A stretch of 64,000 nucleotides of DNA from assembly GCF_019890615.1 (NCBI RefSeq), contig NZ_JAINVZ010000022.1, positions 62,001-126,000 on the forward strand, in the 5' to 3' direction. Origin of the DNA: Streptantibioticus parmotrematis (GTDB lineage Bacteria; Actinomycetota; Actinomycetes; Streptomycetales; Streptomycetaceae). Of this stretch, positions 11,058 through 52,953 are shown in pieces; position 1 is the first letter of the stretch, and each line of letters starts with the position of its first letter. Under the pieces are notes generated by a model that was not told where the DNA came from, made no database searches, and was given only the letters and a program-made list of their open reading frames with translations. The translations under genes and the position numbers were made by a program.

Positions 11058-11491
11058 GGAGGGCACGGGGGGAGCGTACCCTTGCGGGCGGCGGCATCCG
11101 TGGCCAGATGTTCATCGGAGCGTCGCCGGAACGTCCCGCCTGACGTATGGACAGACGCTAATGGTCTAGTCCACAATTGACATCGGCAAGCCTCCGCCTT
11201 CCCCGCACAGGAAGGCGGACCGAGGCCACCGGCGCTCTCTGCCCTGACTGCGTCGCGGCCTCCCACCCGGTCGGCATCCCGGCCGCGGGGACCGCACACC
11301 CCGCGACACCGGCGCCGACGGCAGCTGAGGGCTGCGGTGCCGCGAGGGCTGAGGGTCCCTTGCCGGCGCCGCGGCCCGCGGCGTTTTCCGGCCCTTCCGA
11401 CGGGCCCCCGCTCCAACGAGCCTTCCCCCGCGGCGTCCCGGCTCCCCGAAGCCTCTTTCACGCGGCGATCCCCCTGCGGCAGACTGGGCCG
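11058..11491. promoter_or_regulatory. Divergent control region between the PdtaS-like kinase and CoA-transferase genes
   Basis: This 434-bp non-coding region holds the dre-like site at 11160-11175, a TTGACA hexamer at 11177-11182, and a 9-bp stem-loop (CCGCCTTCC at 11194-11202 paired with 11210-11218). Open frames over it do not begin with plausible starts. Confidence 0.5.
11160..11175 (+). promoter_or_regulatory. DasR-responsive element (dre) candidate
   Basis: AATGGTCTAGTCCACA matches the dre consensus ACTGGTCTAGACCACT at 13 of 16 positions, including the central GGTCTAG core. It lies about 100 bp upstream of the PdtaS-like kinase start and about 315 bp upstream of the CoA transferase. DasR itself is encoded 8 kb away. 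Confidence 0.65.
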
Positions 11492-22084: not shown

Positions 22085-22108
22085 ACCACGCCCCAGCCGC
22101 GCGCCGCG

Positions 22109-22138
22109 CCGCCGTTCCCCGCCCCCGGGGGACGGCGG
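22109..22138 (+). terminator. Hairpin terminator after mctP
   Basis: CCGCCGT at 22109-22115 pairs with 22132-22138, and an inner CCCC/GGGG extension lengthens the stem. It separates mctP from the nrd control region. Confidence 0.65.
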
Positions 22139-22208
22139 TTCCGCGTCCACGGGCCGCTTCCCGACCGTGACTTCCCCGCTCTCCCAAGGCCCACCGACTC
22201 GCGACACG

Positions 22209-22224
22209 ACACAACATCTAGGGG
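22209..22224 (+). promoter_or_regulatory. NrdR box 1
   Basis: The sequence ACACAACATCTAGGGG fits the NrdR box pattern (acaCwAtATaTwGtgt), including C-w-A-x-A-T-x-T-w-G. NrdR is the zinc-finger/ATP-cone repressor of ribonucleotide reductase genes. Confidence 0.75.
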
Positions 22225-22239
22225 TGCTCTACCTCCAAG

Positions 22240-22255
22240 CCACAAGATGTATGCT
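22240..22255 (+). promoter_or_regulatory. NrdR box 2
   Basis: CCACAAGATGTATGCT is a second, weaker match, starting exactly 31 bp after box 1, about three helical turns as expected for paired NrdR boxes. Its right half (TATGCT) could also be the -10 element, so NrdR binding would block transcription initiation. Confidence 0.65.
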
Positions 22256-22261
22256 CGACGT

Positions 22262-22364
22262 GCTGTCGCCGCAGGGGAACTCCGGTGGGAATCCGGGACT
22301 GCCCCGCAACGGTGTGCGAGCGTACCTGGCCGTACGTCCGTGAGTCCGAGGACCTGCCGACAGC
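22262..22364 (+). ncRNA. Cobalamin (AdoCbl) riboswitch controlling nrdAB
   Basis: The closing helix pairs GCTGTCG (22262-22268) with CGACAGC (22358-22364). Inside are the conserved GGTGGGAATCCGGGACTG segment, CCCCGCAACGGT, and the B12 box GAGTCCGAGGACCTGCC. These are the hallmark blocks of the cobalamin riboswitch. A compact hairpin follows (CTCCGGCC at 22370-22377 paired with 22383-22390) and may act as expression platform. In S. coelicolor a B12 riboswitch turns off the class Ia reductase operon when the B12-dependent class II enzyme can work. Confidence 0.93.
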
Positions 22365-22501
22365 GCATCCTCCGGCCGGTCGGGCCGGAGTGGTGCCGAG
22401 ATGTCCGGGCCTCGCGGGTTGGGCCGGTGGACGCGCCGCGGCATGCCCGTGCGCGGCCTGCCCCCTCGCGTCGCCACCGCCTACGAGGGAGACAGATCGC
22501 C

Positions 22502-24877
22502 GTGACCATCGCGCCCGCAGACCCCGCCTCAGCACTCGCCCCCGACGTGCCCGAAGGGCCCGGTACCGCGCTGCTGCGCACCCTGACGGAGCTGACCGCC
22601 GATCTGCCCGCCACCGACCCGGGACGGGTCGCCGCCGCCGCGCTGCGCGGCCGGCACGCCGGGTCCGACGACGCCGAACTGCGGTCGCTGGCCACCGAGG
22701 CCGCGGCCGGCCTGATCGCCGAGGACCCGCAGTACAGCCGTCTCGCCGCCCGCCTGCTGGCCCGCGCGATCGCCGAGGAGGCCGCGGGGCAGGGCGTGGT
22801 CACGTTCTCCGACTCCATCGCGACCGGCCACCGCGAGGGCCTGATCGCGGACCGCACCGCCGACTTCACCGCCGCGCACGCCGCCCGCCTGGACGCCGCG
22901 ATCGACCCCGAGGGCGACGACCGCTTCGGCTACTTCGGCCTGCGCACCCTGCACAGCCGCTACCTCCTGCGTCACCCGTTGACCCGTCAGGTCGTCGAGA
23001 CGCCGCAGCAGTTCATGCTGCGGGTGGCCTGCGGCCTGGCCGAGGACGACTCGCGCCGGGCGCTGGACGACGTGCTGTCGCTGTACACGCTGATGAGCCG
23101 CCTGGACTACCTGCCCAGCTCCCCGACGCTGTTCAACTCCGGCACCCGCCACCCGCAGATGTCCTCCTGCTACCTGCTGGACTCCCCCCTCGACCAGCTC
23201 GACTCGATCTACCAGCGCTACCACCAGGTGGCGCGGCTGTCGAAGCACGCGGGCGGCATCGGCCTGCCGTACTCCCGCATCCGTTCGCGCGGTTCGCTGA
23301 TCCGCGGCACCAACGGGCACTCCAACGGCATCGTGCCGTTCCTGCGCACCCTCGACTCCTCCGTCGCCGCCGTCAACCAGGGCGGCCGCCGCAAGGGCGC
23401 GGCCTGCGTCTACCTGGAGACCTGGCACGCGGACATCGAGGAGTTCCTGGAACTGCGCGACAACACCGGCGAGGAGGCCCGGCGCACCCACAACCTCAAC
23501 CTCGCGCACTGGATCCCCGACGAGTTCATGCGCCGCGTGGAGTCCGACGGGCCGTGGTCGCTGTTCTCCCCCGCCGACGTCCCGCACCTGGTCGACCTGT
23601 GGGGCGACGAGTTCGACGCCGCGTACCGCGTGGCGGAGGCGGAGGGCCTGGCGGTGCGGACCGTTCCCGCGCGGCAGTTGTACGCCCGCATGATGCGCAC
23701 CCTCGCGCAGACCGGCAACGGCTGGATGACCTTCAAGGACGCCTCCAACCGCACCGCCAACCAGACCGCCGAGCCGGGCCGGGTCGTGCACTCGTCCAAC
23801 CTGTGCACGGAGATCCTGGAGGTCACCGACGACGGCGAGACCGCGGTGTGCAACCTCGGCTCGGTCAACCTCGCCGCGCACCTCGGCGTGGACGGCGAGA
23901 TGGACTGGGAGCGGCTGGACGCCACCGTGCGCACCGCCGTGACCTTCCTGGACCGCGTGGTCGACATCAACTTCTACCCGACCGACGAGGCCGCCACCTC
24001 CAACTCCCGCTGGCGGCCGGTGGGTCTGGGCGTGATGGGCCTGCAGGACGTCTTCTTCCGGCTGCGGCTGCCGTTCGACTCGGACGCGGCCCGGGCGCTG
24101 TCCACCCGCATCGCCGAGCGCATCATGCTCGCCGCCTACGAGGCCTCCGCCGACCTGGCGGAACGTCACGGCCCGCTGCCGGCCTGGAGCGAGACCCGGG
24201 CGGCGCGCGGCGTGCTGCACCCCGACCACTACCCGGACGTGGCCCGCACCTGGCCGGAGCGCTGGGACGCGCTGCGCGAGCGGATCGCCGCGACCGGCAT
24301 GCGCAACTCGCTGCTGCTGGCGATCGCCCCGACCGCCACCATCGCCTCGATCGCGGGCGTCTACGAGTGCATCGAGCCGCAGGTCTCCAACCTCTTCAAG
24401 CGCGAGACGCTCAGCGGTGAGTTCCTCCAGGTCAACGCGTACCTGGTGGAGGAGCTGAAGACGCTGGGCGTGTGGGACGGGCAGACCCGCGAGGCGCTGC
24501 GCGAGTCCAACGGCTCGGTGCAGGACCTGAACTGGATCCCGAAGGACGTGCGCGAGCTGTACCGCACGGCGTGGGAGCTGCCGCAGCGCGGGCTGATCGA
24601 CATGGCCGCCGAGCGCACCGCGTACCTCGACCAGAGCCAGTCGCTCAACCTCTTCATGGCGTCGCCCACCATCGGCAAGCTCAGCTCGATGTACGCCTAC
24701 GCCTGGAAGAAGGGCCTGAAGACCACGTACTACCTGCGGTCGCGCCCGGCGACCCGGATCGCCCGCGCCGCGAGCGGTGCGACGGCCACCGCCGCCGTCC
24801 CCGCCCAGCAGACCACCGAGGCCGACGCCGTGGCCTGCTCCCTTGAGAACCCCGAGTCCTGCGAGGCCTGCCAGTAA
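22502..24877 (+). CDS. nrdA: Class Ia ribonucleotide reductase, alpha (catalytic) subunit
   Basis: A 791-residue large subunit that reduces ribonucleoside diphosphates to deoxyribonucleotides. The active site is visible as SSCYLLD (first redox Cys), SNLCTEI (Asn, thiyl-radical Cys and Glu) and AVCNLGSVNL (second redox Cys). The C-terminal shuttle cysteines are in ESCEACQ. The N-terminus is short before the alpha-helical domain and shows no obvious ATP-cone, so activity control by dATP may be missing or different. GTG 22502 follows GAGGGAG. The 250-base leader carries NrdR boxes and a cobalamin riboswitch. The stop overlaps nrdB. Confidence 0.95.
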   Translation: MTIAPADPASALAPDVPEGPGTALLRTLTELTADLPATDPGRVAAAALRGRHAGSDDAELRSLATEAAAGLIAEDPQYSRLAARLLARAIAEEAAGQGVVTFSDSIATGHREGLIADRTADFTAAHAARLDAAIDPEGDDRFGYFGLRTLHSRYLLRHPLTRQVVETPQQFMLRVACGLAEDDSRRALDDVLSLYTLMSRLDYLPSSPTLFNSGTRHPQMSSCYLLDSPLDQLDSIYQRYHQVARLSKHAGGIGLPYSRIRSRGSLIRGTNGHSNGIVPFLRTLDSSVAAVNQGGRRKGAACVYLETWHADIEEFLELRDNTGEEARRTHNLNLAHWIPDEFMRRVESDGPWSLFSPADVPHLVDLWGDEFDAAYRVAEAEGLAVRTVPARQLYARMMRTLAQTGNGWMTFKDASNRTANQTAEPGRVVHSSNLCTEILEVTDDGETAVCNLGSVNLAAHLGVDGEMDWERLDATVRTAVTFLDRVVDINFYPTDEAATSNSRWRPVGLGVMGLQDVFFRLRLPFDSDAARALSTRIAERIMLAAYEASADLAERHGPLPAWSETRAARGVLHPDHYPDVARTWPERWDALRERIAATGMRNSLLLAIAPTATIASIAGVYECIEPQVSNLFKRETLSGEFLQVNAYLVEELKTLGVWDGQTREALRESNGSVQDLNWIPKDVRELYRTAWELPQRGLIDMAAERTAYLDQSQSLNLFMASPTIGKLSSMYAYAWKKGLKTTYYLRSRPATRIARAASGATATAAVPAQQTTEADAVACSLENPESCEACQ

Positions 24878-25953
24878 TGTCCACCCCGACCACGCCGACC
24901 ACGCCGACCACGACCCCGGACGCGAGCGAGAACGCGAACGCGGCCAGGACCACGAAGAACCTGCTGGACCCGGGCTTCGAGCTGACGCTGCGGCCGATGC
25001 GCTACCCGGACTTCTACGAGCACTACCGCAACGCGATCAAGAACACCTGGACGGTGGAGGAGGTCGACCTCCACTCCGACGTCGCCGACCTGGCCAAGCT
25101 CTCCCCCGGCGAGCAGCACCTGATCGGCCGGCTGGTCGCGTTCTTCGCCACCGGTGACTCGATCGTGTCGAACAACCTGGTGCTCACCCTCTACAAGCAC
25201 ATCAACTCCCCCGAGGCGCGGCTGTACTTGTCGCGGCAGCTGTTCGAGGAGGCCGTGCACGTCCAGTTCTACCTGACGCTGCTCGACACCTACCTGCCCG
25301 ACCACGACGACCGGGCGGCGGCGTTCGCGGCGGTGGAGAACATCCCGTCGATCCGCGAGAAGGCGCAGTTCTGCTTCAAGTGGATGGACTCGGTGGAGAA
25401 GCTGGACCGCCTGGAGACCAGGGCGGACCGGCGGCGCTTCCTGCTGAACCTGATCTGCTTCGCGGCGTGCATCGAGGGCCTGTTCTTCTACGGCGCGTTC
25501 GCCTACGTCTACTGGTTCCGCTCGCGCGGTCTGCTGCACGGCCTGGCGACCGGCACCAACTGGGTGTTCCGCGACGAGTCGATGCACATGGACTTCGCCT
25601 TCCAGGTGGTCGACACCGTGCGCCAGGAGGAGCCGGACCTGTTCGACGAGGAGATGGGCCGGCAGGTCACCGCGATGCTGGAGGAGGCCGTCGAGGCCGA
25701 GCTGCAGTTCGCCCGCGACCTGTGCGGTGACGGCCTGGCGGGCATGAACACCGACTCGATGCGCGAGTACCTGGAGGCGGTCGCCGACCAGCGCCTGGCC
25801 CGGCTCGGCCTGCCGGTGCGCTACGGCTCGACCAACCCGTTCTCGTTCATGGAGCTGCAGAACGTCCAGGAGCTGACCAACTTCTTCGAGCGCCGTGCCT
25901 CCGCCTACCAGGTGGCGGTCGAGGGCTCGGTCTCCTTCGACGACGACTTCTAG
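24877..25953 (+). CDS. nrdB: Class Ia ribonucleotide reductase, beta (radical) subunit
   Basis: A 358-residue ferritin-like protein that generates the tyrosyl radical for NrdA. Di-iron ligand motifs are seen in QLFEEAVHVQFY (E-x-x-H followed by the radical-Tyr region), CIEGLFFYGAF and WVFRDESMHMDF (E-x-x-H). The C-terminal tail VSFDDDF is the peptide that docks into the large subunit. The N-terminal 25 residues are a Thr/Pro-rich extension. The ATG shares one base with the nrdA stop (TAATG). A strong terminator follows, and the nrdS regulator gene that follows nrdB in S. coelicolor is not present here. Confidence 0.95.
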   Translation: MSTPTTPTTPTTTPDASENANAARTTKNLLDPGFELTLRPMRYPDFYEHYRNAIKNTWTVEEVDLHSDVADLAKLSPGEQHLIGRLVAFFATGDSIVSNNLVLTLYKHINSPEARLYLSRQLFEEAVHVQFYLTLLDTYLPDHDDRAAAFAAVENIPSIREKAQFCFKWMDSVEKLDRLETRADRRRFLLNLICFAACIEGLFFYGAFAYVYWFRSRGLLHGLATGTNWVFRDESMHMDFAFQVVDTVRQEEPDLFDEEMGRQVTAMLEEAVEAELQFARDLCGDGLAGMNTDSMREYLEAVADQRLARLGLPVRYGSTNPFSFMELQNVQELTNFFERRASAYQVAVEGSVSFDDDF

Positions 25954-25989
25954 GAACGCCGGTTCCAGGAGCCGCCGAACGCCCGGCTG

Positions 25990-26037
25990 AACGCCGAAGT
26001 GCCCCGGAAGGACAGCCTTCCGGGGCACTTCGGCGTT
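25990..26037. terminator. Strong terminator after nrdB (also faces def)
   Basis: A perfect 22-bp inverted repeat (25990-26011 and 26016-26037) with loop ACAG, followed by T residues at 26036-26039. It lies between the convergent nrdB and def genes and can stop transcription from either side. Confidence 0.92.
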
Positions 26038-26053
26038 TTCGCGCGGCGCGGCG

Positions 26054-26683
26054 TCAGTCGTTGGGGACCGTCTCGTAGCGCGGGGTCTTCTCGGCCATCT
26101 GCTGGAGCGCGTCCTTGCGTTCGCGCTTGGAGAGGCGGTCGAGGTAGAGGTGACCGTTCAGGTGGTCGGTCTCGTGCTGGAGGCAGCGGGCGAAGTAGCC
26201 GCGGCCGTGGACGGCGATCGGCTCGCCGTGCAGGTCCTGGCCGCGCACGATCGCGTAGTCCGGGCGGGCCAGTTCCATGTAGGGGCCGGGCACCGACAGG
26301 CAGCCCTCGTTGGCGACGTCCAGCACCCGCTGGTCGGCGGGGAGTTCGTCGAGCACCGGGTTGACGACGTGGCCGACGTGCCGCACGCCCTCCTCCTCGT
26401 CGGGGCAGTCGTAGACGAAGACCCGGGCGTCCACACCGATCTGGTTGGCGGCCAGGCCGACGCCGCTGGCGGCGCGCTGGCTGGCGAACATGTCGTCGAC
26501 GAGGGCGGCGAGCTTGTCGTCGAACTCGGTGACCGTGGCGCACGGCTTGTGCAGCACGGGGTTGCCGACGACGGTGATCGGGCGCACCGTGCCGCGCTCC
26601 CGGTGCGCCGCCTCCCGCTGCTCGGCGTCCACCGTGTCGTCGGTGAACTCCGACACCTGAGCGGTCTGCTCCTGCTGGGTCAT
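26054..26683 (-). CDS. def: Peptide deformylase
   Basis: A 209-residue metallo-enzyme removing the formyl group from nascent proteins. All three family motifs are intact: [18 protein letters not shown] (metal-binding Cys) and HETDHLNG (two metal His and the catalytic Glu region). The N-terminus has about 45 extra residues, acidic and Gln-rich, before the catalytic core, longer than the E. coli enzyme. ATG 26683 (MTQQEQT) is taken as start; an ATG nine codons upstream (26710) is possible, and neither has a strong ribosome binding site. Streptomyces usually encode several deformylases, so this may not be the only copy. Confidence 0.9.
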
Positions 26684-50597: not shown

Positions 50598-50635
50598 CGG
50601 TGAGGCCCGGAACCTTGCGGTTCCGGGCCTCACCG
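50598..50635 (-). terminator. Terminator of the first initiator tRNA gene
   Basis: A perfect 17-bp stem (50598-50614 and 50619-50635), loop of four, followed on the minus strand by CTTTT. It lies 5 bp past the tRNA 3' end. Confidence 0.88.
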
Positions 50636-50640
50636 TTCAG

Positions 50641-50714
50641 TAGCGGGGACAGGATTTGAACCTGCGACCTCTGGGTTATGAGCCCAGCGAGCTACCGAGC
50701 TGCTCCACCCCGCG
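50641..50714 (-). tRNA. Initiator tRNA-fMet (CAU), copy 1
   Basis: A 74-nt cloverleaf with anticodon CAT. Initiator hallmarks are the three consecutive G:C pairs of the anticodon stem (GGG...CCC around CTCATAA), A11:U24, and an unpaired 1:72 position (C1 opposite U72). The TTCAAAT T-loop and GGTA D-loop are normal. The CCA end is not encoded. Identical in sequence to the copy at 52817-52890. Confidence 0.96.
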
Positions 50715-50795
50715 TCGTTGTGGCTCCACTGTAGACGACGCGTTCTGAGCAGTGCAAATCCGTTGTCCAGGTCAGACCGTCCGGCCGACAGGCGG

Positions 50796-52770: not shown

Positions 52771-52809
52771 GGGAAGGCCCGGAGTCCCTGGGGACTTCCG
52801 GGCCTTCCC
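52771..52809 (-). terminator. Hairpin downstream of the second initiator tRNA
   Basis: A 13-bp perfect outer stem (GGGAAGGCCCGGA at 52771-52783 and 52797-52809) with an imperfect inner part. It is placed 8 bp after the tRNA 3' end, without a T-run. Confidence 0.72.
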
Positions 52810-52816
52810 TCTCCAG

Positions 52817-52890
52817 TAGCGGGGACAGGATTTGAACCTGCGACCTCTGGGTTATGAGCCCAGCGAGCTACCGAGCTGCTCCACCCCGCG
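52817..52890 (-). tRNA. Initiator tRNA-fMet (CAU), copy 2
   Basis: All 74 bases are identical to copy 1. The flanks are also shared on both sides for a few bases (AG before and TCGTTGTG after on the plus strand). It has its own hairpin downstream, different in sequence from that of copy 1, so the two genes are independent units rather than a very recent large duplication. Confidence 0.96.
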
Positions 52891-52953
52891 TCGTTGTGCG
52901 GCAACCGTACCACGACGCGGGAGTTGTCCCCCACTTCGGCCGTATGCGGCGTT

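Follow-up and report, generated by a model that had tools for sequence, protein, structure and literature searches.

Is the nrdAB message of this locus controlled twice, once at its promoter by NrdR and again in its leader by cobalamin? A sequence-only reading had proposed such a double control. Here we examined this question in the window, i.e. the whole stretch of 64 kb of DNA that was analysed, and in the nrdA leaders of relatives. The features are collected in Table 1. NrdA is closest, among named relatives, to that of Streptomyces sp. ICBB 8177 (96% identity). The neighbourhood contains a GntR regulator, which we take to be DasR, an MctP-like permease, a peptide deformylase, a SigR-like sigma factor with an RsrA-type anti-sigma factor and the sRNA scr5239 (window 11191-11369, 81 bits), as in S. 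coelicolor. It corresponds to the SCO5216-SCO5240 region there. Elsewhere in the window, two copies of a 109 nt stretch (50625-50733 and 52801-52909, 90% identical) carry identical tRNA genes and flank degenerate repeats with a spacing of 96 nt.

Table 1. Control elements and genes of the nrdAB locus, in window coordinates.
Feature	Position	Strand	Remarks
NrdR box 1, ACACAACATCTAGGGG	22209-22224	+	box pair present in 80/80 Streptomycetaceae leaders
NrdR box 2, CCACAAGATGTATGCT	22240-22255	+	outer half fused with the -10; position 13 G to T
-10-like element, TATGCT	22250-22255	+	within box 2
Short cobalamin aptamer core	22262-22364	+	P1 strands 22262-22268 / 22358-22364; B12 box AGTCCGAGGACCTGCC
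L5 loop CCCCG, half of predicted kissing loop	22302-22306	+	L5 consensus UCCCG (PMC10653944)
Hairpin A, between P1 and P13	22365-22396	+	-25.6 kcal/mol, z -3.97
P13 hairpin, predicted expression-platform half of kissing loop	22404-22431	+	L13 CG(C)GGG at 22413-22418
Candidate anti-start-site stretch	22442-22468	+	possible partners: P13/L13, or the Shine-Dalgarno via CCCTCG (22463-22468)
Shine-Dalgarno of nrdA, GAGGGAG	22485-22491	+	
nrdA, class I ribonucleotide reductase alpha	22502-24877	+	GTG start; TIGR02506, 736.7 bits, cut-off 341
nrdB, class I ribonucleotide reductase beta	24877-25953	+	best NF005550, 262.5 bits, below cut-off 309

The region is orthologous to the nrdABS control region of S. 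coelicolor (SCO5226-5224). In both, class Ia nrdAB has a leader with a cobalamin riboswitch and a promoter covered by paired NrdR boxes, and nrdRJ encodes a second ribonucleotide reductase. Unlike in S. coelicolor, the AraC-like nrdS does not follow nrdB (25953-26054): no match to it was found downstream in the window. The adjacency is patchy as nrdS follows nrdB in 35 of 76 relatives. An AraC-like homologue with 58% identity is located on another contig (L135). NrdJ is also encoded in the genome, with an NrdR reading frame upstream of nrdJ (L051). Two boxes 32 bp apart are present at the nrdRJ promoter as well, and they keep all four conserved C/G positions. Between nrdR and nrdJ an Rfam nrdJ RNA was detected (RF03034; L051 4414-4490, minus strand, 43.3 bits).

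NrdR prefers or requires boxes that are separated by an integer number of helical turns (PMC12051234) and the S. coelicolor protein kinks the DNA at each box (PMC9110341). The two boxes noticed earlier start 31 bp apart with a spacer of 15 bp, i.e. three turns. The window was searched for two 16-mers 31 or 32 bp apart and held one such site which, being palindromic, was scored on both strands. This confirmed the boxes as the sole pair with a score of at least 36 in 64 kb, and 12 dinucleotide shuffles yielded none. A search of the window with the consensus of a single box was uninformative (18 matches vs 27.7 expected). The overlap of box 2 with a possible -10 element, also claimed before, was borne out as well: the motif ATGTATG[CAG]T coincides with the right half of box 2 in all 80 Streptomycetaceae leaders, i.e. 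those with enough upstream DNA, the window included. No match to a -35 element was found. Transcription would start near 22261-22263, at the first base of P1. The conserved G-C pairs at both ends of the core of an NrdR box are important (PMC9110341). Three of these four C/G positions are present in the window; position 13 of box 2 is a T instead of the conserved G, presumably because the same bases serve as -10. In the presence of dATP and ATP, S. coelicolor NrdR binds strongly to nrdRJ and more weakly to nrdAB (PMC9110341). The trade-off between -10 and box may explain this weaker binding. Across families, the consensus G of box 2 was given up in Streptomycetaceae and retained in others (GATGTAGGAT, ATATGGTGT).

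Box 1 might be the sole operator, with box 2 being a -10 that resembles a box by chance. We consider this quite improbable: across the leaders the inner half of box 2 (C4, A6 and the AT core) is retained, as is the spacing, whereas the bases that separate the two boxes vary freely, and S. coelicolor NrdR does bind the nrdAB fragment, even though the G at position 13 is lost and the outer half is invariant as a -10. The Cutibacterium (Propionibacterium) acnes nrdAB operon, which also has an nrd-box over the promoter and a cobalamin riboswitch, is reported with a single box (PMC3848588) and would be a precedent for a sole operator. The boxes in the window are paired.

Is the combination of boxes and riboswitch peculiar to the window? 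A box pair (31, 32 or 33 bp) and a riboswitch were found in each of the 80 Streptomycetaceae leaders. Box pair and aptamer were also carried by 20 of 20 leaders from further genera of this family, and a class-wide search recovered box pair and aptamer core at 30 of 30 nrdA loci (L009-L038). Most of 11 more distant loci had both; one was without a convincing box pair and two were without a match to the B12 box. The pairing is ordinary among nearly all actinobacterial relatives checked, apart from the unusually compact switch. NrdJ was present in all 41 genomes with NrdA of the same type, the source genome included, which fits a B12-independent enzyme that is shut off when B12 supports NrdJ.

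The aptamer itself was examined by a cmscan of the whole window. RF00174 was located at 22250-22375 on the plus strand with 41.5 bits (gathering threshold 31.5; E 4.5e-7 in 64 kb), and the cobalamin model thus bears out what had been read from the letters. Another credible Rfam family was not found in the leader. The closing helix GCTGTCG/CGACAGC is exact as claimed, and in 41 relatives the closing helix of 12 pairs is 99% paired. The claim that the aptamer was complete with an end at 22390 did not stand, as this omits the P13/L13 half at 22404-22431. The arm after P1 (P2 arm) is mostly missing in the window, with 3 of 23 RF00174 model positions, and so is the P6 extension (P8-P12) of class I, with 17 nt vs 59 model positions. 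A large P6 extension is the criterion for a class I cobalamin riboswitch (PMC11260477). The AdoCbl-II aptamer (RF01689) is similarly compact and without P8-P12. Its model reached 36.3 bits at the site, with a threshold of 36.5, and RF00174 scored higher; one relative (L166) passed the RF01689 threshold. Judged from its sequence, the shortened aptamer sits between these two Rfam classes. Because the peripheral parts of class I are absent, its ligand preference is a predicted one. The other cobalamin riboswitches of the genome (L001-L007, L007 being below the Rfam threshold) precede methylmalonate-semialdehyde dehydrogenase-, metE-, cobalt/nickel transporter-, cobD-, cobN- and cbtA-like genes, as judged from the translations.

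Has the shortened aptamer degenerated and lost cobalamin binding, leaving NrdR control alone? One could think so since the P2 arm and the long P6 extension, both absent here, are kept by relatives outside most Streptomycetaceae. However, core, B12 box, L5 and P13/L13 hardly differ among the 80 leaders, in which compensatory changes are seen. For the S. coelicolor version, moreover, papers citing the original work report a response to coenzyme B12. A degenerate aptamer is very improbable. Its length is about 115-160 nt in most Streptomycetaceae genera and about 190-275 nt in the Streptomycetaceae genera g92 and g95, at a divergent nrdA locus (L160) and in the other families examined. Accordingly, the shortening appears to be lineage-specific: most Streptomycetaceae have the short form and relatives keep the full class I form. 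It is a tentative idea, for which we would put the chances slightly short of even, that within Streptomycetaceae the nrdA switch was reduced in place from a full class I to a compact class II-like aptamer, retaining a translational platform and the kissing loop, in which L13 is bulged, and that box 2 became fused to the -10 meanwhile.

In cobalamin riboswitches L5, with the consensus UCCCG (PMC10653944), pairs with L13 of the expression platform (PMC10653944, PMC11260477). Here we looked for L13 in the leader alignment. A conserved stretch was found at window 22402-22433, which RNAalifold folds as a hairpin. Its loop CG(C)GGG can form five pairs, with one bulged base, with the L5 of the window, CCCCG, which differs from UCCCG in most Streptomyces. 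The L5-L13 pairs were 100% paired in 41 leaders, 9 of the 41 having an alignment gap at one position. Other families have a related hairpin with a similar loop about 40 nt past the B12 box; there the P13 stem is altered yet complementary (GGCC/GGCC, GGUC/GACC, GGCU/AGCC). The variable L5-L13 pair co-varies across about 110 leaders. When the first base of L5 was U, its partner in L13 was A in 48, G in 20 and U in 10 leaders; when it was C, the partner was G in 23, U in 1 and A in none (Fisher p 1e-8 for A vs not A, a statistic that ignores kinship). Among further Streptomycetaceae genera both loops were found in 8 leaders, with C-G in seven and C-A in one (L162). Because L5 and L13 pair, co-vary and match the published kissing-loop partners, the stretch 22262-22431 reads as one riboswitch with hairpin A as an insert. 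Hairpin A is absent from a few Streptomyces: L056, L070, L081, L091 and L122 (S. himastatinicus-like group). S. bohaiensis (L122) is additionally without the 3' strand of P1, but P13 is kept. As another candidate for a kissing-loop half, the 7-nt loop UGNGAAU was rejected; it is L4 and had no co-varying partner.

How might the riboswitch act on nrdA? When the kissing loop is not formed, folding predicts an open P13 (probability ~0.015), the 5' strand and loop of which pair with the bases that directly precede the Shine-Dalgarno. Over 79 related leaders, in figures that ignore phylogeny, this alternative pairing was stronger than in shuffles with a mean z of -1.45 (35 leaders below -1.65, none above +1.65); in the window itself it was not above composition (z +0.11). 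When P13 was forced, the mean predicted accessibility of the Shine-Dalgarno dropped from 0.215 to 0.129 in 78 leaders, again ignoring phylogeny, with a decrease in 43 and an increase in 5; in the window it dropped from 0.21 to 0.00. A U-tract (intrinsic) terminator was not found in 22100-22560. Three other candidates were discarded: a local anti-Shine-Dalgarno hairpin alone, in which pairing was not above composition (mean z -0.25), pairing between the Shine-Dalgarno and CCUCG in the loop of P13 (predicted probability 0.015), and an upstream ORF ending in the GTGA of nrdA, where the overlap is the conserved second codon and a conserved start is lacking.

Because a U-tract terminator is absent and forcing of P13 lowers the predicted accessibility of the start site in most relatives, our preferred reading is an OFF switch that acts on translation, with loss of the transcript coupled to it. 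The model is the metE riboswitch of M. tuberculosis, in which the start site, an anti-start-site stretch and the hairpin of L13 are in competition and occlusion goes along with a loss of transcript (PMC11260477). In both, the hairpin engaged in the L5-L13 kissing loop competes, in our case by prediction, with an anti-start-site stretch, and an intrinsic terminator is lacking. However, metE has a full class I aptamer and is a different gene, and the mechanism was tested there whereas it is predicted in the window. Could the riboswitch be purely transcriptional, the ligand favouring a terminator within the leader such that nrdA is not transcribed? Coenzyme B12 represses transcription of nrdABS in S. 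coelicolor, as reported by Borovok et al., 2006 (from its title and as cited in PMC4991794 and PMC3293853), and RNA-seq of P. acnes nrdAB showed that much transcription stops ahead of the first gene (PMC3848588). Yet in M. tuberculosis metE transcript loss is seen alongside translational occlusion, a U-tract is missing here and P13 forcing does alter the predicted accessibility of the start site. We rate purely transcriptional control as unlikely, though deserving attention.

The proposal of two controls on one nrdAB message was supported: both are present and are conserved together, the operon is a true nrdAB operon and the genome also has nrdR-nrdJ. We are rather confident that NrdR at the promoter and a cobalamin riboswitch with a translational step on the leader jointly explain the region. 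When dNTPs are plentiful, NrdR would be loaded with dATP and ATP. On two boxes three helical turns apart it would block the promoter, the -10 of which is in box 2. Transcripts which start at the foot of P1 would carry the cobalamin riboswitch. Adenosylcobalamin would lock the aptamer as well as the L5-L13 kissing loop, and the latter would keep P13 closed. The bases directly preceding the Shine-Dalgarno would then be available to occlude it, and nrdA would remain untranslated. The untranslated message may then be lost via Rho-type termination or decay, and the cell would depend on the B12-dependent NrdJ. In this scheme the elements, their conservation and co-variation and the gene content are from our own analysis; NrdR binding and the lowering of nrdABS transcription by coenzyme B12 are taken from published relatives. 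We infer the start site, the translational step and the involvement of Rho.

The two-layer concept is already known, having been published for S. coelicolor nrdABS and Cutibacterium acnes nrdAB. The notion of the sequence-only reading that both controls were known separately has to be corrected: in S. coelicolor both have been described on one and the same nrdAB promoter and leader, and for the P. acnes operon multi-layered control was discussed explicitly (PMC3848588). The present data confirm the published logic across many genomes: on one message, B12 and high dATP separately turn off the B12-independent enzyme. What is added is the assignment of P13/L13 and the lineage-specific shortening of the aptamer. 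The mapped kissing-loop hairpin makes the expression platform of Streptomyces nrdAB directly testable. If the switch was indeed reduced in place, the nrdA leader would constitute a natural series for how the class of a riboswitch changes within one gene.
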